From: Eubacterium sp. | Lineage (GTDB): Bacteria > Bacillota > Clostridia > Lachnospirales > Lachnospiraceae | Direction of reading: 5' to 3' | Length of the DNA: 64,000 nt | Assembly: GCA_017619835.1 (NCBI GenBank) | Contig: JAFZRN010000039.1 | Span: forward strand, 18,229-82,228 | Program-made: the position numbers and the translations under genes | Shown: one piece after another, positions 3,511 through 13,532 of the stretch | Position numbering within the stretch: the stretch's first letter is position 1 | Layout: every line of letters starts with the position of its first letter | The notes under the pieces: model-generated | Told to the model about the DNA's origin: nothing | What the model saw: the letters and a program-made list of their open reading frames with translations, nothing else | Databases searched by the model: none

Positions 3511-3981
3511 ATGGATATTGTATATAAAAATCTAACGGAAGCAGAACTGGAAAACTTTATTGATATGAGGATCAAACAGTTGACTGAAGAATATGAGTCA
3601 GAGGGAAGAACTGTCCCAAGTGATGTAGATCTCAAATCTGCACTCTTTGACTATTATCATAAGCATATGTCGGATGGTACATTTGTTTCATGGCTTGCTA
3701 TGGATGGTGAGACGATTGTGGGAACTAGTGGAATGTCGTTTGTGGAAAAGCCGCCATATTTTTCTTGCCCATCGGGAAAGCTCGGCCTTCTTTCAAGTAT
3801 GTTTACTGATCCGAACTATAGGCGTATGGGGATTGCAAAAGAACTTCTTCATCGCGTTGTGGAAGAGGCAAGAGCATATGGGTGTGGATCGGTTCATATC
3901 ACTGCTTCGGATATGGGTGTAAAGTTATATACGGCATATGGTTTTAAACATAATGGAAACTTTATGATGTATAATTTTTGA
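3511..3981 (+). CDS. GNAT family N-acetyltransferase
   Basis: 156 residues. The acetyl-CoA loop is visible as FTDPNYRRMGIAKELLHRVV (R-x-x-G-I/A) after the beta4-like strand LGLLSSMF, with the terminal YTAYGFKHNG motif. The substrate is unknown. AGGAG lies just upstream of ATG 3511. It is one of at least five GNAT genes or gene stubs in the first 12 kb. Confidence 0.85.
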   Translation: MDIVYKNLTEAELENFIDMRIKQLTEEYESEGRTVPSDVDLKSALFDYYHKHMSDGTFVSWLAMDGETIVGTSGMSFVEKPPYFSCPSGKLGLLSSMFTDPNYRRMGIAKELLHRVVEEARAYGCGSVHITASDMGVKLYTAYGFKHNGNFMMYNF

Positions 3982-3990
3982 TAAAAAACA

Positions 3991-4023
3991 TGTCGTTCAC
4001 ACAGAATTTGTGTCGTTCACACA
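3991..4023. repeat. 13-bp direct repeat pair downstream of a GNAT gene
   Basis: TGTCGTTCACACA occurs at 3991-4003 and again at 4011-4023. The copies are 20 bp apart start to start, about two helical turns. The central ACACA-gaatt-TGTGT is also a small inverted repeat. It may be a protein binding site; no function can be assigned. Confidence 0.5.
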
Positions 4024-4112
4024 ATGGCTATTGATTTTTTATGAAAAATAAGTAATTATAATGTTCTGTATAATTAGATTGACAAGGGTTTCTATTTGTT
4101 ACTCTCTCTCAT

Positions 4113-4152
4113 GAAAGAACAGCTTGGGAAATTTGCTGTTCTTTCTTTTTTG
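4113..4152 (+). terminator. Rho-independent terminator
   Basis: An 11-bp perfect stem (GAAAGAACAGC at 4113-4123 with GCTGTTCTTTC at 4135-4145), an 11-base loop, then TTTTTTGTT. It lies between the GNAT gene and the next membrane-protein gene. Confidence 0.85.
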
Positions 4153-4217
4153 TTAAGGGGGTTTATGATATATTATATTGGATAACAAATCGCAGTTTGT
4201 CTGTGAAAGGATTTGAG

Positions 4218-4718
4218 ATGAATAACAGTATTTTAGTGATTGGCGGTGCAGATGGTCCGACTGTTCTATTCCTTTCCGAAATAGGTTGGCTTAATATATT
4301 TGGTTTGATAATAGTGGTATTGTTGTTAATTCCAAATATCATATATGCTTTAAAGGAAAAGAACGGGGAAAACAAATGTACAAATAAATTCATGAATATT
4401 CTGGAACAAATTGGTCGTTATGGGAGTATGTTTCTAATGGTATTCAACATTGGCTTAGCGGAATTTGGGTTTTGGTCTGTTGGAGCCTTTATTGTTTACT
4501 TGTTTGGAAACATATTATTAATGACTTCTTACTGGCTGATTTGGGTGCTATATTTTAGAAAGAAAACACGTTGGAAACAGATGGCATTGGCACTTATTCC
4601 GACGGGTATATTTTTGCTGAGCGGTATAACAATGCTTCACGTTTTATTGATTATATTTGCGGTGACTTTTGGAATAGGACACATATACGTTACGAGTAAG
4701 AATTATGATTACGAATAG
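4218..4718 (+). CDS. Multi-pass membrane protein with N-terminal IGGADGPT motif
   Basis: About 166 residues with roughly five membrane segments. ATG 4218 is preferred over an upstream TTG (4197) because AAAGGA lies about nine bases before it. The N-terminus reads NNSILVIGGADGPTVLFLS. The G-G-A-D-G-P-T core is the same as a motif in the beta subunit of Na+-translocating decarboxylases, but the rest of the protein does not resemble that subunit and is far too short. Function unknown. Its end overlaps the next GNAT gene if that gene starts at 4705. Confidence 0.6.
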   Translation: MNNSILVIGGADGPTVLFLSEIGWLNIFGLIIVVLLLIPNIIYALKEKNGENKCTNKFMNILEQIGRYGSMFLMVFNIGLAEFGFWSVGAFIVYLFGNILLMTSYWLIWVLYFRKKTRWKQMALALIPTGIFLLSGITMLHVLLIIFAVTFGIGHIYVTSKNYDYE

Positions 4719-5256
4719 GTATAAGAAAATGAAAAATTATTATGATGACGGAGAATTGAAAATCCGAAGTATGATACCGGAAGATGCAAAGGTATTGTAT
4801 GATACATATCTTTCCTACGGATGGCATCCTCAGATCAAAACTTATGAAGATTATTATATAGAACAGGAAAAAGGCGAAAGACTTGTATTCGTTGCTGAAT
4901 ATAAAGGTGAAGTGAAAGGTCAGTGTACTCTTGTTCTTCATCCAACAGAAGGCCCTTGGGGTGGTAAGGATTATCCTGAAATTGTCGATTTGACAGTGTT
5001 CTCTGATATTCATTGCAAGGGTATAGGAAACAAGTTGCTTGATGTGGCAGAAAGTGAAGCTGCGAAATTGTCTGATATGGTGTTTTTGGCTGTTGGATTA
5101 CACTCCGGTTATGGCCCTGCACAGCGAATCTACAGTAAACGCGGATACATTCCGGATGGAAGTGGTGTCTGGTATCAAAACAAAGTTCTGGAGCCGTATA
5201 CACCTTGTGTTAATGACGATGACCTGCTTTTGTTTTTATCAAAAAATCTAAACTGA
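4705..5256 (+). CDS. GNAT family N-acetyltransferase
   Basis: 183 residues from ATG 4705; ATG 4729 is equally possible and has AGG nine bases upstream. The GNAT core is clear: IVDLTVFSDIHCKGIGNKLL, with the C/H-x-G-I-G acetyl-CoA loop, and the late GPAQRIYSKRGYIPDG. The WHPQI, PEIVDL and GYGPAQRIY segments resemble uncharacterised GNATs of Clostridia. The overlap with the membrane protein in front suggests coupled expression. Substrate unknown. Confidence 0.85.
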   Translation: MITNRYKKMKNYYDDGELKIRSMIPEDAKVLYDTYLSYGWHPQIKTYEDYYIEQEKGERLVFVAEYKGEVKGQCTLVLHPTEGPWGGKDYPEIVDLTVFSDIHCKGIGNKLLDVAESEAAKLSDMVFLAVGLHSGYGPAQRIYSKRGYIPDGSGVWYQNKVLEPYTPCVNDDDLLLFLSKNLN

Positions 5257-5270
5257 CATAGGTGAAAAAC

Positions 5271-5774
5271 ATGGATAATAAATCGTTATATATTCTGGCA
5301 GGATATGACGACCTGACAGAAGAAAAACTATCAGCAATACAAAACAAACTATATGAAGCGGGATTCGAAGGATTTCAGACAAAAAATATCCCTATGCATT
5401 TTACTCTGGGATCTTATGATTGCAATCGCGAAGAAGACCTTATAAACCGCTTAAAAAGTATAGGTGATACAATCGAGACATTCGAGGTATCATTCAATCA
5501 TACTGGCTTGTTCAGGCTTCCGGAAAATGATGTTTTATTCATTAAGCCGGAATTAAGCAGGGAAATGCTTTCGCTGAAAGACCATTTTCTGGATAGTAAA
5601 GATCAATTCGAGTGGTCTCCTCACAGTACCTTGCTGATTGATAAATCTGATGTTATTCAAAAAGCAATGCCGATAGTATTAGATGAGTTTTCTCCTTTTG
5701 CCGGAAAGGTGAAAAAGCTTTATCTTTATGAATTTTGGCCGACAAGACATATTTTAACAGTTGAGATCATGTAA
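5271..5774 (+). CDS. 2H phosphoesterase (2'-5' RNA ligase-like) family protein
   Basis: 167 residues from ATG 5271, chosen over GTG 5262 because AGGTG lies about seven bases before the ATG. It has the two H-x-T/S-x motifs of the 2H fold: HFTL at about residue 42 and HSTL at about 118. These form the active site that opens or makes cyclic or 2'-5' phosphodiester bonds in RNA or nucleotides. The substrate is not predictable. The gene lies in a run of small enzymes with short spacers. Confidence 0.85.
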   Translation: MDNKSLYILAGYDDLTEEKLSAIQNKLYEAGFEGFQTKNIPMHFTLGSYDCNREEDLINRLKSIGDTIETFEVSFNHTGLFRLPENDVLFIKPELSREMLSLKDHFLDSKDQFEWSPHSTLLIDKSDVIQKAMPIVLDEFSPFAGKVKKLYLYEFWPTRHILTVEIM

Positions 5775-5794
5775 GAGAATATAGGAGTAAAAGA

Positions 5795-6403
5795 ATGAAA
5801 CACATTATCACGGTTCAACACACACAGTCAGTTCACCACACGAATGGAATGGTTGGTTCTTGGACTGATTGGGATTTAACGGAGCTTGGGAAAAATCAGG
5901 CTGATCATATTGGTAAAAAACTAAAAGAAGAACTGGCAGGAAAAAAAGTGATCATGTATTCTTCGGATCTAAAGCGTGCTAAACAGACTGCTGACGAGAT
6001 TGCAAAATATCTGGAAGTAAATCCGATATTAAAGAAAGAATTGAGAGAAAGAAATCTTGGAAAATGTTGTGGAAAGTCAGTACAGTGGCTTCGCGAGAAT
6101 ATTGAATCACCTGAGAATACAGTTGATGACAGATTATTTTCAGATGGTGAGAGCAGACGTGATGCATGGAATCGTCTTTTACCATTCTTTGAAGACGTGA
6201 TGGCAAGCGAAGAAGAAAATATAATCATCGTATCCCATGGAGATCTTTTAAGTATCTGGAATGCTATGTATCTGGGACTGCCGGTTGAATCATATTATCA
6301 GGTAGATATACATGGCCCGGCGGGAGGAGTATCTCACATGATCACCGGTGATGACGGAAAACATAGAGTAAGACATATCAATGATATGTCCTATATTGTG
6401 TAG
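5795..6403 (+). CDS. Histidine phosphatase family protein with altered RHG motif
   Basis: 202 residues, phosphoglycerate-mutase-like fold. The N-terminal catalytic motif, normally R-H-G-[EQ]-T, reads V-Q-H-T-Q-S: the His is kept, but the preceding Arg is Gln and Gly is Thr. The later parts are normal: WDLTELGKNQA, YSSDLKRAKQTA, a glutamate in ELRERNLGKC, and the second His in IIVSHGDLL. Several Clostridia carry this QHT variant, so it may be a subfamily with a different substrate rather than a dead enzyme. Confidence 0.8.
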   Translation: MKHIITVQHTQSVHHTNGMVGSWTDWDLTELGKNQADHIGKKLKEELAGKKVIMYSSDLKRAKQTADEIAKYLEVNPILKKELRERNLGKCCGKSVQWLRENIESPENTVDDRLFSDGESRRDAWNRLLPFFEDVMASEEENIIIVSHGDLLSIWNAMYLGLPVESYYQVDIHGPAGGVSHMITGDDGKHRVRHINDMSYIV

Positions 6404-6418
6404 CGAAAAAAGGAGAAT

Positions 6419-6961
6419 ATGATGAGAGCGTTGGTTATCAATTGTAGTCCTGTCAAAACTGGTGCTACTGCAGAAATCAGTAGAATTGTTTCAGAGGAAC
6501 TGGCTGACAGATATGATGTTAAATCTGTTTGTATTGATGATTATGATTTTTCTTTTTGCAGGGGATGCAGGAGTTGTCATGCAACAGCAGAATGTGTTCA
6601 ACAGGATGATGTAGATATTCTGATGAGCGAATTTGAACAGGCAGATGTGATCATATCGGTATCACCTTCCTATTGGGCTGATGTTCCGGGCCAGTTTAAG
6701 GCTTTTATAGATAGATGCACACCCTGGTGCAATACACATGAGCCACACAAGAGTATTCCGTCTGGAAAAAAAGGTTATGCCATTGCTCTTCGTACCGGTC
6801 CCAATGTTGCTGAGTGTAACAGAATTATTGGAACTATCGAACATTTTTATGGACATCTTGAAGTGGATTGCTGCGGCGGATTAGGACTTACATCAATCGA
6901 ATATAGGGAAGATGTTGAAACCAGAAAGCAGGAAATAATAGATTTTTGTAAGGCTATCTGA
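6419..6961 (+). CDS. NADPH-dependent FMN reductase / flavodoxin-like protein
   Basis: 180 residues. The FMN phosphate loop is INCSPVKTGATAEISR at the N-terminus, followed by the CRGCRSCHATAEC cysteine cluster and SPSYWADVPGQFKAFIDR of the iron-sulfur-flavoprotein-like NAD(P)H:FMN reductases. It probably reduces quinones or metals, or shuttles electrons in the cytoplasm. ATG 6419 has AGGAG upstream. A related protein is at 18576-19109. Confidence 0.85.
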   Translation: MMRALVINCSPVKTGATAEISRIVSEELADRYDVKSVCIDDYDFSFCRGCRSCHATAECVQQDDVDILMSEFEQADVIISVSPSYWADVPGQFKAFIDRCTPWCNTHEPHKSIPSGKKGYAIALRTGPNVAECNRIIGTIEHFYGHLEVDCCGGLGLTSIEYREDVETRKQEIIDFCKAI

Positions 6962-7037
6962 CAAGTCAGAATCGATAGCTGAGTTGAATAACGACTAAAA
7001 GGGTTATGAATAGAGAAGATACCGGTTTTCTTTCTTG

Positions 7038-7066
7038 TTGACATTTCCAACTTATCGGCGTATTAT
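7038..7066 (+). promoter_or_regulatory. Consensus sigma-A promoter of the attenuated leader
   Basis: TTGACA (7038-7043), exactly 17 bp, then TATTAT (7061-7066). The predicted transcript starts near 7073, just before the leader peptide reading frame. It is one of the best promoter matches in the window. Confidence 0.8.
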
Positions 7067-7101
7067 GGCATGCATATTAATTCAAAGAGGAAATGAAACT
7101 G

Positions 7102-7158
7102 ATGCTGATTAACAGTAATAAAAAACAGCATAAGCAGAGAAGACGTAGGTTTTTGTAG
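7102..7158 (+). CDS. Arg-rich leader peptide (18 codons)
   Basis: ATG 7102 to TAG 7156-7158 encodes MLINSNKKQHKQRRRRFL. AAAGAGG lies 11 bases upstream; an in-frame ATG at 7093 is too close to it. The peptide ends in four consecutive Arg codons plus Phe-Leu. It lies between a strong promoter and a set of alternative hairpins, the architecture of a ribosome-sensing transcription attenuator. The Arg run includes the +x+ pattern known to favour macrolide-dependent ribosome stalling in Erm leaders. That comparison is an inference. Confidence 0.6.
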   Translation: MLINSNKKQHKQRRRRFL

Positions 7159-7163
7159 CCACT

Positions 7164-7290
7164 ACAGATTATCCGTATGGCTGCTTGAACATATGTCTTG
7201 TTGCTGTACGGTGCTGTTAATAAGTAAAATATAAACAGAACCGTAAATGATCAGAAAGTGTATGAATATTTACGATTCTGTTTTTTCTTT
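7164..7290 (+). promoter_or_regulatory. Four-segment transcription attenuator (1:2, 2:3, 3:4 pairings)
   Basis: Segment 1 (ACAG 7164-7167, CCGTA 7173-7177) pairs with segment 2 (TACGG 7207-7211, CTGT 7214-7217). Segment 2, with one more T at 7218, can instead pair with segment 3 (AACAG 7234-7238, CCGTA 7241-7245) through two uninterrupted 5-bp blocks. Segment 3 can instead form the terminator with segment 4: AACAGAA 7234-7240 with TTCTGTT 7276-7282, and CGTAAAT 7242-7248 with ATTTACG 7268-7274, followed by a T run. Segment 1 starts six bases after the leader stop codon, so a ribosome stalled near the end of the leader would cover it, release segment 2 to form the 2:3 antiterminator, and allow transcription of 7310 onward. 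Confidence 0.7.
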
Positions 7291-7309
7291 ACTTGGAAAG
7301 GAGATTGAG

Positions 7310-7759
7310 ATGGAGAACAATCAAAAGGAAAAAGCACTTATTTACTTTAGTGAGAAATTTCACTGTTCACAAGCAGTACTTGCTTCATATGCTGAGGAAT
7401 GCGGGATTACCGAGGAACAGGCATTGAAGCTTGGTTCATGCTTTGGAAGCGGAATGAGAAAGGGTGAAGTTTGCGGGGCGTGTTCAGGAGCTCTTATGGT
7501 TTTAGGCCTCCTGTATGGACAAAGTATAAAAGGTGATATGAATGAACGCCATCGTTCTGACGAGGTAAATGATTATTTTCTAAAGCGTTTTAAGGAGATA
7601 AACGGCTCATATATATGCAATGATCTATTGGGTTATGACATTTCTACTTCGGAGGGACGGCAGGCTGTTTTAGAAAAAGGATTGTTTACGGATTTCTGCC
7701 CTAAGATGGTTGCGAGCGCAGTAGATATAATCGAAGAGATGAAGACAATTTATTCTTAA
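7310..7759 (+). CDS. C_GCAxxG_C_C family redox-type protein
   Basis: 149 residues from ATG 7310, which follows AAAGGAG. An upstream in-frame ATG at 7247 lies inside the attenuator stem and is rejected. The family pattern is present: FHCSQAVLASYAEECG, then GSCFGSGMRKGEVCGACSGA and a late FCPKMV cysteine. Members are small cytoplasmic proteins with conserved Cys thought to handle redox or metal chemistry; none has a firmly known role. It is the first gene behind the attenuator, followed 18 bases later by a GNAT. Confidence 0.85.
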   Translation: MENNQKEKALIYFSEKFHCSQAVLASYAEECGITEEQALKLGSCFGSGMRKGEVCGACSGALMVLGLLYGQSIKGDMNERHRSDEVNDYFLKRFKEINGSYICNDLLGYDISTSEGRQAVLEKGLFTDFCPKMVASAVDIIEEMKTIYS

Positions 7760-7777
7760 CATAGAGAGGATAAAGCT

Positions 7778-8293
7778 ATGGAAGATTACTTGATCAGAGA
7801 AGTGAAAATAGAAGATGCGGGAAGGCTGGCTGAGATATATTCATATTATGTTACAAATTCTGCTATTTCATTTGAATATGATGCTCCTTCAGTAAGTGAG
7901 TTTGAAGAGCGTATCAGAAAAACGAAAGAAAGGTATCCGTATCTTGTGTGCGAAAAAGATGGGCTTGTGATAGGATATATCTATGCAGGTCCTTATAGTA
8001 CAAGAGATGCATACTTCCGTACGGCGTCATCATCGATATATATTGATAAGGACTATCATAGACGTGGGATTGGCCGTATGCTGTATAAGGAATTAGAGCC
8101 CCGACTCCGAAGCATGGGAATCGTAAATCTGCTTGCAGGTGCAGCTTACACGGAAGTGGAAGATGAATACCTGACAAATGACAGTTATAGATTTCATACA
8201 AGCATTGGATTTGACAAAGTGGCTCATATGAGATCAATAGGAATAAAGTTTGACAGATGGTACGATCTTTTATGGATGCAGAAGAAATTATGA
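7778..8293 (+). CDS. GNAT acetyltransferase, phosphinothricin acetyltransferase-like
   Basis: 171 residues. It shows IREVKIEDAGRLAEIYSYYV, then SAISFEYDAPSVSEFEERI, VIGYIYAGPYSTRDAY, the acetyl-CoA loop YHRRGIGRMLY and the FHTSIGFDKVAHM terminus, the overall pattern of the Pat/Bar/YncA-type GNATs. These acetylate phosphinothricin, methionine sulfoximine or similar amino-acid analogues, and the natural substrate here is unknown. It is co-directional with the C_GCAxxG gene and would be controlled by the same attenuator. Confidence 0.85.
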   Translation: MEDYLIREVKIEDAGRLAEIYSYYVTNSAISFEYDAPSVSEFEERIRKTKERYPYLVCEKDGLVIGYIYAGPYSTRDAYFRTASSSIYIDKDYHRRGIGRMLYKELEPRLRSMGIVNLLAGAAYTEVEDEYLTNDSYRFHTSIGFDKVAHMRSIGIKFDRWYDLLWMQKKL

Positions 8294-8342
8294 TATAATT
8301 AACCTCGATTGGTGTGGAGTATATATAAGCGGAGAGAAAAAT

Positions 8343-8477
8343 ATGATCGATTATGAAATAACAAACACTATGACTCCCGAAGAGTACATGGAGATGAAGG
8401 TATCGATAGAAGAGGTGGCTTTTGTCGGTGATAAAAAGCCTGTTGGAGGTTTTGAATTATGCGGATTGAACATATAG
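8343..8477 (+). pseudogene. Stub of a GNAT acetyltransferase gene (N-terminus only)
   Basis: A 44-codon frame from ATG 8343 with GAGAG upstream. Residues 1-20 (MIDYEITNTMTPEEYMEMKV) match the start of a small GNAT family common in Lachnospiraceae, but the sequence then loses similarity (residues 21 onward, starting SIEEVAFVGDK) and stops. No acetyl-CoA loop remains. The end overlaps the VOC gene that starts at 8459. It may be a deletion relic that still supplies translation to the next gene, and could be an unrelated small peptide. Confidence 0.5.
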
Positions 8478-8842
8478 CTATGTATGTAAATGATTTGGAA
8501 GCTGCAAGAGATTTCTTTGTAAGATATCTTGGCGGTGTATCTAATGATGGCTACCATAATAAAACAACAGATTTCAGATCATATTTTATCTCGTTTGATG
8601 ACGGCGCCAGGCTGGAGATCATGAATAAACCGGGGATGACAGATTCCGAAAAGGCAGTAAATCAAACAGGTTATATTCATGTGGCATTCAGTGTTGGAAG
8701 CCGTGAGAAAGTAGATGAGATAACAAGCTTGTTAAAAGCAGATGGATATGAAGTATTAAGCGGCCCGAGAACCACCGGCGACGGATATTATGAAAGCTGT
8801 GTTGTCGCAGTGGAGGGGAATCAGATAGAGATAACAGTTTGA
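8459..8842 (+). CDS. VOC family (glyoxalase/bleomycin-resistance-like) protein
   Basis: 127 residues, one glyoxalase fold. [20 protein letters not shown] is the first beta-alpha-beta unit, with the metal-type His at residue 5 and Glu at about 57 (ARLEIM). The second half has [11 protein letters not shown] and [13 protein letters not shown] lies about nine bases before ATG 8459, inside the GNAT stub. Substrate unknown; similar proteins act as lactoylglutathione-lyase-like or resistance enzymes. Confidence 0.85.
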
Positions 8843-8867
8843 TAAAAAGAAAAGGAGAATCTGAAGT

Positions 8868-9905
8868 ATGAAAACAAGAATAGCTTTCTTCGATGCAAAA
8901 GATTATGACAAGGAATCATTTATCAGATCAAATAGTGATGAGAACTTCGATATCAGTTATTTCGAAACAAGACTATCAAAAGATACCTGCCGCCTGGCAG
9001 AAGGCTTCGATGCGGTCTGCGTATTCGTTAATGATGACATCAATAAAGATGTGATCGATATGCTTGTAGACATGGATGTAAAGCTGATAGCACTTCGCTG
9101 CGCCGGCTATAACAATGTCGATATTGATTATGCATATAAGAAGCTGCATGTTGTACGTGTGCCTGCATATTCTCCTTATGCAGTTGCAGAGCATGCGATG
9201 GCGCTTCTTCTTACATCGGTCAGAAGAATTCATAAAGCATACATCCGTACAAAAGATTTCAATTTCAGCCTGAATGGTCTGACGGGATTTGATCTTCACG
9301 GAAAAACTGTCGGCGTTGTAGGAACAGGTAAGATAGGAAGAATCTTTATAGATATCTGCCGTGGATTTGGAATGAACATTATTGCCTATGATAAGTTCCC
9401 GGCTGAGGGAAGCGGAATTGAATACGTATCTCTTGATGAATTGTGGGAGAGAAGTGATATCATTTCCTTCCACTGTCCTTTGACAGATGAGAATCATCAT
9501 ATGGTGAATGAAGAGACAATTGAAAAGATGAAGAAGGGTGTTATTCTGATCAATACATCCAGAGGCGCACTCATCGATGCCGAAGCACTTGTTGAAGGGA
9601 TAAAGCAGCGTAAAGTCGGAGCGGCATGCCTCGATGTATACGAAGAAGAATCAGATGTATTCTTCCATGATTATTCTAATCATATAGTGAATGATGATGT
9701 TCTGGCGAGACTCATTTCCATGCCTAATGTAATCGTTACATCTCACCAGGCATTCCTTACTCAGGAAGCGCTTTCCAACATCGCAGACACAACACTCGAG
9801 AATGTGAAAGACTTCTTTGAAAACGGCTACAGTAAAAACGAAGTTTGCTATAAATGTGCATTAATCAACACTTGCAATCAAGACCATAACAAGAAGTGCT
9901 TCTAA
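8868..9905 (+). CDS. ldhA: D-lactate dehydrogenase (D-2-hydroxyacid dehydrogenase, NAD+)
   Basis: 345 residues. It has the D-isomer-specific 2-hydroxyacid dehydrogenase pattern: LIALRCAGYNNVDI with the substrate Arg, the NAD loop VVGTGKIGRIF, the acceptor Asp in IIAYDKFP, HCPLTDENHHMVN, INTSRGALIDAEAL, the Glu in VYEEES, and the catalytic His in TSHQAFLTQEAL. It matches LdhA-type fermentative enzymes that reduce pyruvate to D-lactate and regenerate NAD+. The C-terminus carries an unusual Cys-rich tail, from CYKCALINTC to the final CF, beyond the usual end. AGGAG precedes ATG 8868. Confidence 0.9.
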   Translation: MKTRIAFFDAKDYDKESFIRSNSDENFDISYFETRLSKDTCRLAEGFDAVCVFVNDDINKDVIDMLVDMDVKLIALRCAGYNNVDIDYAYKKLHVVRVPAYSPYAVAEHAMALLLTSVRRIHKAYIRTKDFNFSLNGLTGFDLHGKTVGVVGTGKIGRIFIDICRGFGMNIIAYDKFPAEGSGIEYVSLDELWERSDIISFHCPLTDENHHMVNEETIEKMKKGVILINTSRGALIDAEALVEGIKQRKVGAACLDVYEEESDVFFHDYSNHIVNDDVLARLISMPNVIVTSHQAFLTQEALSNIADTTLENVKDFFENGYSKNEVCYKCALINTCNQDHNKKCF

Positions 9906-9958
9906 TGCATGAGCTGGAATATATAGTGTTAAGGAAATGATTGAAAGAATAAATTAAC

Positions 9959-10414
9959 ATGATCCGTTTAAAAACTATTACAAAAGACAACATAGATGCG
10001 GTATTAAACTTACGAGTATTTGACGAACAAAAGAAATTTGTATCTACAACGGCAGAATCATTAGCCGAGGCCTACGTCTATAAAGACACGGCCTTTCCGT
10101 TTGCCGTCTATGAAGATGACGAGATTGTCGGCTTCATTATGATGGGCTATTACGAGGCGAAAGAGTATTACACCTTGTGGAAGCTGCTGATCGATAAGAA
10201 TCACCAGAACAAAGGCTACGGACGAAAAGCGCTTGAGCTTGGCATTCAATTTCTCAAAGAAAAGTATAATGTCAAAGCAATCTATACAGGTGTGTCTCCC
10301 GGAAATGATGTCGCCAAACGCTTATACACTTCAATGGGATTCGTTGAGACGGGAGTATTTGAAAACAACATGGAAGAGCTGGTATATGATAACAATAACG
10401 AAACAACAGGCTAG
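9959..10414 (+). CDS. GNAT acetyltransferase, BltD-like diamine N-acetyltransferase
   Basis: 151 residues. It contains ITKDNIDAVLNLRV at the N-terminus, FIMMGYYE, LWKLLIDKNHQNKGYGRKAL (acetyl-CoA loop) and GNDVAKRLYTSMGFVETG, the pattern of BltD/PaiA-like spermine and spermidine acetyltransferases. If so, it would neutralise polyamines, which fits the polyamine genes at 14.7-18.2 kb, but this is an inference. The last 29 bases overlap the YcaQ-like gene. Confidence 0.85.
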   Translation: MIRLKTITKDNIDAVLNLRVFDEQKKFVSTTAESLAEAYVYKDTAFPFAVYEDDEIVGFIMMGYYEAKEYYTLWKLLIDKNHQNKGYGRKALELGIQFLKEKYNVKAIYTGVSPGNDVAKRLYTSMGFVETGVFENNMEELVYDNNNETTG

Positions 10415-12573: not shown

Positions 12574-12602
12574 TCGTGAAGTCACAAATTGTGATATCAC
12601 GA
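12574..12602. promoter_or_regulatory. 29-bp inverted repeat upstream of the ORF6N gene
   Basis: TCGTGA-ag-TCACAA-a-TTGTGA-ta-TCACGA, starting right after the stop of the HTH gene and ending just before the ribosome binding site of the ORF6N gene. An 18-base core (TGAAGTCACAAATTGTGA) recurs inside that gene at 12841-12858. It is a likely operator. Confidence 0.6.
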
Positions 12603-12614
12603 AAAGGGGTGTAT

Positions 12615-13532
12615 ATGATGGTGAATAATGATACTAATGAAATCGTTCCGATAAGTGTTAAACAAGAAGAAATAGTAAATATGATTTATACTATTAGAGG
12701 AAAGCAAGTTATGCTTGATTTTGATCTAGCTGTTTTGTATGGATATGAAGTAAAGACGTTAAATCAACAAGTAAAAAGAAACATTAATCGTTTTCCAGAA
12801 GATTTTATGTTTCAGCTTTCAAAGGATGAAGTTGAAAACTTGAAGTCACAAATTGTGACTTCAAGTTGGGGCGGTCGAAGAAAACCTCCTTATGCCTTTA
12901 CTGAACAAGGAATTTATATGCTGGCAACAGTCTTGAAAGGTGAAGTTGCTGAACAGCAGAGTATTTTTATTATGCGTGCATTTCGAGAAATGCGTAGATT
13001 TATTTCCAACAATGCGTTACTATTTGAAAAGGTTAGCCATATAGAATTAAAACAGCTAGAGTATCAAAAAAACACTGACGAGAGATTTGATAAAGTTTTT
13101 CAGTATATCGAAGATCATGCTGAGTCTGAACAAAAAGTTTTCTTCGATGGCCAAATCTATGATGCATTCAGTTTTATTGTTTCGCTTGTTCAAAAAGCAA
13201 AGACAGAGATTGTCCTTATAGATAGTTACGTAGATGTAAAGACGCTTGATATTCTTTCAAAGAAGAGACAGGGCGTAGATGTTATAATCATAACTTATGC
13301 AAATGCAAGACTATCCAATAATGATATTTCAAATTTTAATATGCAATATCCTAATCTTGTGGTAAAGAGATCTCAGGTTTTTCATGATAGATTTATTGTT
13401 ATTGACAGTTCTGTGGTTTATCATGTTGGAGCATCAATAAAAGATGCCGGAAAAAAGTGTTTTGGGATATCCCAAATTGAAGAAAGAGAAATAACTCAAG
13501 GAATTATAAACAGAATTCAATCGATAGTTTAG
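12615..13532 (+). CDS. ORF6N-domain DNA-binding protein with PLD-like C-terminal region
   Basis: 305 residues from ATG 12615, chosen for AAAGGGG upstream; the upstream frame from 12576 runs over the operator. Residues ~15-115 are an ORF6N (KilA-N-like) domain: VMLDFDLAVLYGYEVKTLNQ, NRFPEDFMFQL and PYAFTEQGIYMLATVL. A helical linker leads to a C-terminal module (EIVLIDSYVDVKTLDILSKK, then VVKRSQVFHDRFIVID) that resembles the PLD-like domain seen behind ORF6N. Such proteins come from phages and mobile islands. A 31-bp palindrome lies inside the ORF6N part. Confidence 0.8.
   Translation: MMVNNDTNEIVPISVKQEEIVNMIYTIRGKQVMLDFDLAVLYGYEVKTLNQQVKRNINRFPEDFMFQLSKDEVENLKSQIVTSSWGGRRKPPYAFTEQGIYMLATVLKGEVAEQQSIFIMRAFREMRRFISNNALLFEKVSHIELKQLEYQKNTDERFDKVFQYIEDHAESEQKVFFDGQIYDAFSFIVSLVQKAKTEIVLIDSYVDVKTLDILSKKRQGVDVIIITYANARLSNNDISNFNMQYPNLVVKRSQVFHDRFIVIDSSVVYHVGASIKDAGKKCFGISQIEEREITQGIINRIQSIV
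12837..12867. repeat. 31-bp perfect palindrome inside the ORF6N gene
   Basis: Two 15-base arms (AACTTGAAGTCACAA at 12837-12851 and its exact complement at 12853-12867) around one central A. It shares 18 bases with the upstream inverted repeat at 12574-12602 and encodes part of the conserved NLKSQIVTSSWGG segment. Confidence 0.8.

Follow-up and report, generated by a model that had tools for sequence, protein, structure and literature searches.

What controls expression of the putative redox gene that starts at position 7310 of the window, the 64,000-nucleotide stretch of a Eubacterium sp. genome analysed here, is the question that this locus raises. The encoded C_GCAxxG_C_C protein (7310-7759, 149 aa; PF09719, E 4.3e-30) is the first gene after a candidate attenuator, and is followed by a GNAT N-acetyltransferase resembling phosphinothricin and arsinothricin acetyltransferases (7778-8293, 171 aa). 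The GNAT scores 154 bits against the ArsN1b model, below its cut-off of 210, and, among proteins of solved structure, its best relatives carry the name phosphinothricin N-acetyltransferase. With good confidence, we read the upstream region as a ribosome-mediated, arginine-sensing transcription attenuator that belongs to a family of argS leaders, was captured by the C_GCAxxG-GNAT operon and most likely controls it. This reading rests on sequence, homology, covariation and predicted folding, all in silico. From it we infer how the cell would respond, and that regulation extends past the first gene to the operon as a whole.

All elements of the region lie on the forward (+) strand. A sigma-70-type promoter-like pair, TTGACA-17 bp-TATTAT, spans 7038-7066, with TTGACA starting at 7038 and TATTAT ending at 7066. 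It is the top sigma-70-like match in the scanned region, and its 17-bp spacer is as an earlier note on this DNA had described; it is not the perfect pair claimed there, with 11 of 12 consensus bases. Promoter-like sites of such quality number 12, where shuffled sequence would give 13.6, and the match by itself therefore proves nothing. TTGACA boxes were also seen by eye 5' of three argS leaders (L157, L162 and L166). A Shine-Dalgarno sequence, AAAGAGG (7084-7090), precedes the leader peptide ORF, MLINSNKKQHKQRRRRFL (7102-7158), which was defined from the sequence and from alignment with 18 homologous leaders. As claimed, it has 18 codons, including four consecutive Arg codons (AGA AGA CGT AGG, 7138-7149); it begins with ATG at 7102 and ends RRRRFL-stop, the stop being TAG at 7156-7158. 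An alternative in-frame ATG at 7093 is, in our reading, too near the Shine-Dalgarno sequence.

The approximately 130 bases 3' of the ORF are strongly structured RNA, the last part of which is a U-tailed hairpin at 7234-7290. The leader RNA folds at -67.9 kcal/mol, as compared to -40.85 +/- 3.7 for shuffled sequences (z -7.3), and none of 200 shuffles is as good. The hairpin is a predicted intrinsic terminator with arms at about 7234-7248 and 7268-7282 and a U-tail at 7281-7290, in agreement with the U-tailed terminator previously assigned to the 3:4 form. It is seen in folding and in covariation, as helix 4 of the alignment, with 96.7% of cells paired. The start codon of the C_GCAxxG gene, with its own Shine-Dalgarno sequence, lies 19 bases 3' of the U-tail. 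The predicted leader therefore has the short ORF, Shine-Dalgarno sequence and run of one amino acid's codons that mark an attenuator, and its mutually exclusive RNA structures end in an intrinsic terminator. Together with the fold, these bear out the observation of a leader-peptide attenuator in front of the C_GCAxxG gene. At gathering score, Rfam models match one tRNA in the window and nothing in the leader itself, on which ground a riboswitch or T-box from Rfam was rejected. The three argS loci checked (L003, L004 and L005) give zero Rfam matches.

The exclusive structures were examined in 19 aligned homologous leaders, in which the conserved pairings anticipated earlier were found; the five leaders of a 15-genome genus sample were left out of this covariation and folding set. 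A long hairpin (7124-7218), defined by predicted folding and covariation, brings AACAGCAU (7124-7131), AAGACGUA (7140-7147) and the stop region (7155-7161) into pairing with 7178-7218. Helices 2 and 3 are strong; the outer helix 1, which involves the first Arg codons, is weaker, with 80.7% of cells paired. Both the Arg codons and the stop are themselves paired with downstream RNA, a feature missing from the earlier pairing scheme. Its 1:2 pairing is real and conserved: it is a protector hairpin (7173-7211) in which CCGUAUGG (7173-7180) pairs with CUGUACGG (7204-7211), with consensus CCGYAUGG and CUGURCGG and 96.7% of cells paired in the 19 leaders, and it excludes the long hairpin. An antiterminator (7207-7245) joins UACGGUGCUGUU (7207-7218) to AACAGAACCGUA (7234-7245) by 11 pairs. 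It is paired in 89.0% of cells, as compared to 29-57% for slid partners, with no covariation of its own in the 19 leaders.

For the long hairpin and terminator, 94.7% of cells are paired (34-49% for slid partners), and 25 double-changed cells are found versus 8.2 in shuffles (0/500), a count made on an alignment fitted to the covariance model itself. The protector hairpin has 4 double-changed cells versus 0.5 in shuffles of a MAFFT alignment, where 6 of 500 shuffles reach 4. A measure of further pair types is little above shuffles, with 48/500 for the long hairpin and terminator and 475/500 for the protector hairpin. Among the 19 leaders, two changes are found in the window alone: an A-U pair at the leader stop has become G-C, TAA being TAG here with U to C opposite, and the protector hairpin has a C-G to U-A double change. 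The stop-codon double change recurs in G1114, outside the 19-leader set. Because these base changes are compensated, they suggest that the leader has been kept under selection for pairing, either on the way to its present place or in it.

The relatives of the leader point to its origin. Reading covered 24 full-length homologues of the leader, spread over 23 genomes of a single bacterial family. Of these, 11 came from 397 genomes of the family, 2 more from 392 of the order, 6 more from 79 of one genus and 5 more from 15 of another, these genome samples overlapping. The leader DNA alone matches homologues in the same taxonomic family, and three clear ones (G277, G096 and G288) lie directly before argS; the blastn match to the G277 argS leader has E 1.4e-22. 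At E <= 0.01, blastn matched 25 of 299 genomes, including the window's own. Five of the others were read (L003-L006 and L008), of which three are true argS leaders, and the remaining 19 are alignments of approximately 19-38 bases. Covariance models built from 4 leaders (R1) and 11 leaders (R2) find the window at 8.2e-34 and 2.4e-26, respectively, E-values that are not independent because the window is in both seeds. In both sequence and structure, therefore, the window leader is homologous to argS leaders. Its nearest relatives are the leaders of genus g207 and G277 (76-82% identical in the core, 60-64% overall); with the G773 leader, identity is 82% from the leader's end to the antiterminator and 62% over the whole alignment. 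A leader tree also places it near the g207 and G277 leaders, where its branch is long and the support very weak.

An Arg-rich leader peptide is present in all 24, with several Arg replaced by Glu in G115, where the U-tail is also broken. A truncated twenty-fifth leader, in G826, was left out of the count. In the window's own genus, 61 genomes gave the leader in the window genome alone, other matches being at E 0.003 or weaker, and among 291 genomes drawn from the class the window genome alone was matched at 1e-4. On reading, R1 matches above 1e-4 in G110, G058, G408 and G423 and same-genus matches in G352, G345 and G355 proved to be unrelated terminators; weak same-genus matches in G331, G306 and G337 (E 0.17-0.23) stayed outside the reading. 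Opposite-strand matches at the positions of other matches (L117, L133-L135, L161 and L169-L172) were dropped as mirror images of hairpins. L127, in G409, is not a member of the argS leader family: its leader is of Asp type, and an aspartate--tRNA(Asn) ligase gene follows.

The usual target of the family is argS. The gene lies downstream of 18 of the 24 leaders; in 14 cases it scores over the TIGR00456 cut-off, and in 4 it was recognised by reading the sequence. The gap between leader and argS is longer, approximately 150 bases, in G774 and G1124, and the G774 argS frame holds one TGA. Two further leaders, both intact, are followed by a decayed argS: a remnant of approximately 28 codons in G682 (L158, ~1735-1830) and a C-terminal fragment in G1125 (L206). 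Other genes stand behind the remaining four (the window, G115, G007 and G404b), with a gene start close 3' of the terminator only in the window and G115. Behind the truncated G826 leader there is no argS. From these counts, argS has repeatedly been lost while the leader survived.

In the genomes tested, the argS concerned encodes a second synthetase. Two ArgS are encoded in each of the four leader-argS genomes tested (G404, G774, G773 and G277, out of 18; loci L174/L184, L175/L182, L173/L181 and L176/L183), one of each two being leader-linked. The leader-linked ArgS scores 496-513 bits and the other 423-446 bits, and the two types are 28-32% identical in pairs measured against G773. Where the leader is orphaned or truncated, each of the four genomes tested (G682, G007, G115 and G826) has the second ArgS type only; the G115 protein, which is not in the tree, was assigned to this type on score alone. 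Where tested, then, the leader belongs to a spare ArgS. In the window genome, which is 93% complete, a single ArgS scores above cut-off. It is of the first type and 53-60% identical to leader-linked ArgS, and no leader precedes its gene, which lies in another place (G000:C21:23035-24729).

Because 18 of 24 homologous leaders precede argS, uncharged tRNA-Arg, rather than a macrolide, appears to be the likeliest signal. The earlier note had offered Arg starvation or an antibiotic that stalls ribosomes at +x+ motifs, and the first of these stands. In the antibiotic case, a macrolide or similar compound would stall the ribosome at R-x-R and open the operon. The RRRR run does contain +x+ motifs, and macrolide-dependent leader-peptide control has a precedent in an ABC-F gene, as described in the accessible part of PMC10314930. 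However, apart from the argS association, a recognisable ribosome-protection or rRNA-methylation gene follows none of the 24 leaders, in the window or its relatives, and C_GCAxxG and GNAT proteins are not ribosome-protection families. We rejected this reading on those grounds and regard it as highly improbable. A methyltransferase-like protein noticed by eye behind the G115 leader matches no NCBIfam model at 1e-20.

These pairings allow a switch to be proposed for the Arg-sensing attenuator. When charged tRNA-Arg is plentiful, the ribosome would reach the leader stop codon and cover the stop region, which would free 7173-7180 to pair with 7204-7211. The resulting protector hairpin would hide the antiterminator strand, and the terminator (7234-7282) would form. 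When charged tRNA-Arg is scarce, the ribosome would wait at the first Arg codons, so that the helix at the stop codon (7155-7161 paired with 7178-7184, and adjoining pairs) would stay closed, leaving 7207-7218 free for 7234-7245, and RNA polymerase would read on. The stalled ribosome had previously been thought to cover segment 1; with the assumed footprint, a ribosome at the Arg codons reaches 7149-7158, not 7173.

Folding was calculated with the ribosome masked codon by codon, before the terminator 3' arm is made, for footprints P+11, P+14 and P+17. In the window, the predicted antiterminator probability reaches 0.90-0.92 when any of Arg 1-3 occupies the A site, and falls to 0.35 for Arg 4 and 0.23 at the stop. 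It is also 0.8-0.9 at every ribosome position before Arg 4, so the calculation separates a ribosome stalled early from one that has finished, without singling out the Arg codons. For the 19 leaders (P+14), the mean probability is 0.64-0.66 at 16 to 13 codons before the stop, 0.88-0.91 at 11 to 9 codons before it, where the first Arg cluster of most other leaders lies, and 0.26 at the stop. The contrast between Arg and other codons depends on the footprint (0.78 versus 0.55 at P+11, 0.68 versus 0.57 at P+14) and is gone at P+17 (0.55 versus 0.59). The ribosome-free window favours the antiterminator (0.90); in the other 18 leaders the value is at most 0.02 in 16 and 0.06 and 0.42 in two. Since it is predicted to be open, the window switch may be leaky without translation. 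In the full transcript at equilibrium the terminator wins for every ribosome position, and the switch would therefore need co-transcriptional folding. These models support the switch logic but do not prove it.

How the leader came to precede this operon was addressed by searching related loci. Among the best 80 of 230 C_GCAxxG relatives, none has the leader, although four (L050, L085, L096 and L101) hold fewer than 200 bases upstream, too little to show one. None of 18 same-genus GNAT loci has it either. R2 gives nothing below E 0.2 on these 98 loci, its single match at that value (L055, 4246-4337) lying beyond the C_GCAxxG gene. From these 98 loci, we rejected the leader as ancestral to the operon. 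A crude script scan 5' of C_GCAxxG genes at 83 loci, run with no control, returned terminator-like sites at 8 and Arg-rich short ORFs at many, and nothing resembling the window leader. The gene pair occurs without a leader: the GNAT match begins at most 130 bases downstream in 17 of the best 80 of 230 loci. No second genome with the leader before a C_GCAxxG-GNAT operon was found. In the same-genus genome G317, the phosphoesterase-like and FMN-reductase genes are kept (87-89% identical DNA), the sequences diverge right after the FMN reductase, and neither leader nor operon is found at the corresponding place. The earlier note held that orthologous loci without a conserved leader would count against an attenuator. 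Such loci are what the operon has, but the leader is conserved before argS, which indicates that the find is genuine and that the module was captured. Its absence from the C_GCAxxG and GNAT loci and from the window genome's own argS leads to the same view, and the leader, as judged from its distribution, is a captured module with the C_GCAxxG-GNAT operon, and not argS, downstream.

A captured leader could also be a dead relic, left after loss of the leader-linked argS and of no regulatory use to C_GCAxxG. The decayed argS genes in G682 and G1125, the truncated G826 leader, and the broken U-tail and Glu substitutions of G115 are in keeping with such decay. In the window, however, all elements are intact, the C_GCAxxG start and its Shine-Dalgarno sequence follow closely on the U-tail, no argS remnant is seen by eye between them, and the window-specific changes in two helices are compensated. 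We therefore consider a relic improbable and retain the functional attenuator as the preferred reading.

A variant compatible with that reading concerns what the leaders respond to. They may answer mainly to ArgRS inhibitors or Arg analogues, with the Pat-like GNAT detoxifying such a compound. The leader would then be a transferable alarm for failing tRNA-Arg charging, serving ancestrally a spare ArgRS held in reserve for ArgRS poisoning or Arg famine and passed to other genes once that synthetase was lost; here, a translation failure at Arg codons would trigger a redox protein and an amino-acid-analogue acetyltransferase. The second, approximately 30% identical ArgS in four of four genomes tested fits this picture, as does the similarity of the GNAT, nearest to amino-acid-analogue acetyltransferases, although its score falls below the ArsN1b cut-off. 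Supplementary aminoacyl-tRNA synthetases for antibiotic resistance have been reviewed (PMC9437257, in the part accessible), and the accessible part of Vecchione and Sello 2010 reports an antibiotic-resistant auxiliary tryptophanyl-tRNA synthetase under ribosome-mediated transcriptional attenuation, to which the argS relatives correspond as a second synthetase behind a cognate leader peptide. The amino acid is Arg here and Trp there. We know of no operon captured by that Trp attenuator. Altogether, this variant is conceivable but doubtful.

The anatomy and inferred logic of the window leader are those of amino-acid leader-peptide attenuators, with an unusual target. Ribosome-mediated attenuators of the trp, his and leu type in Proteobacteria combine a leader peptide with regulatory codons, alternative hairpins and an intrinsic terminator. 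The window leader shares these features but has one more alternative in its chain (stop-region helix, protector, antiterminator and terminator), and it does not precede arginine genes. In bacilli, a histidine leader peptide is predicted before hisZ and a hisS paralogue (PMC2965389), a comparable Firmicutes case in which synthetase paralogues are predicted to be under the control of leader peptides; the likeness is by description, the amino acid differs, and the accessible part of that source reports no unrelated redox operon. In Salmonella orf34-speF, the mRNA folds differently when ribosomes pause on successive Arg codons in the leader ORF, a parallel to what is proposed for the window. According to the accessible part of PMC6386406, the output of that system depends on Rho, the RBS and RNase G, and the authors found no Rho-independent terminator, whereas the window leader ends in a predicted intrinsic one. 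In searches of the open-licence PMC literature we found no Firmicutes argS leader peptide, and no link to a spare ArgS, survival of such a leader after argS loss, or intact copy before a redox/GNAT operon.

The family adds an amino-acid attenuator that is unmatched by Rfam and lies outside the T-box class. Its leader is seen outliving argS, with one intact copy before a non-arginine operon, a concrete and testable example of a cis-regulatory RNA that has moved to a new target. For the putative redox protein C_GCAxxG, it provides a regulatory clue, Arg-tRNA charging, and it suggests that spare arginyl-tRNA synthetases may serve as reserve enzymes.

Several observations lie beside these findings. 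L127 (G409:C132, ~1505-1700) has a leader ending VSMNRDDDR-stop and a terminator, and its downstream gene matches NF003483 at 549 bits; it resembles an Asp-type attenuator, and its genome is from the bacterial family that has the argS leaders. In the window, 3511-10414 is an array of co-directional small genes, with GNATs at 3511, 4705 and 9959 besides that at 7778, together with phosphoesterase-like (by eye), histidine phosphatase, FMN reductase, glyoxalase and D-2-hydroxyacid dehydrogenase genes. The corresponding array of same-genus G317 lacks the histidine phosphatase gene between the two that flank it, and has a different end. A 44-codon ORF between the GNAT and glyoxalase genes (8343-8477) has no Pfam match and may be a gene fragment. 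The D-2-hydroxyacid dehydrogenase (8868-9905) is VanH-related (250 bits, model cut-off 540) and has a Cys-rich C-terminal tail. Further downstream, 12576-13532 encodes a protein with an ORF6N domain (PF10543), a domain that occurs in phage regulators.
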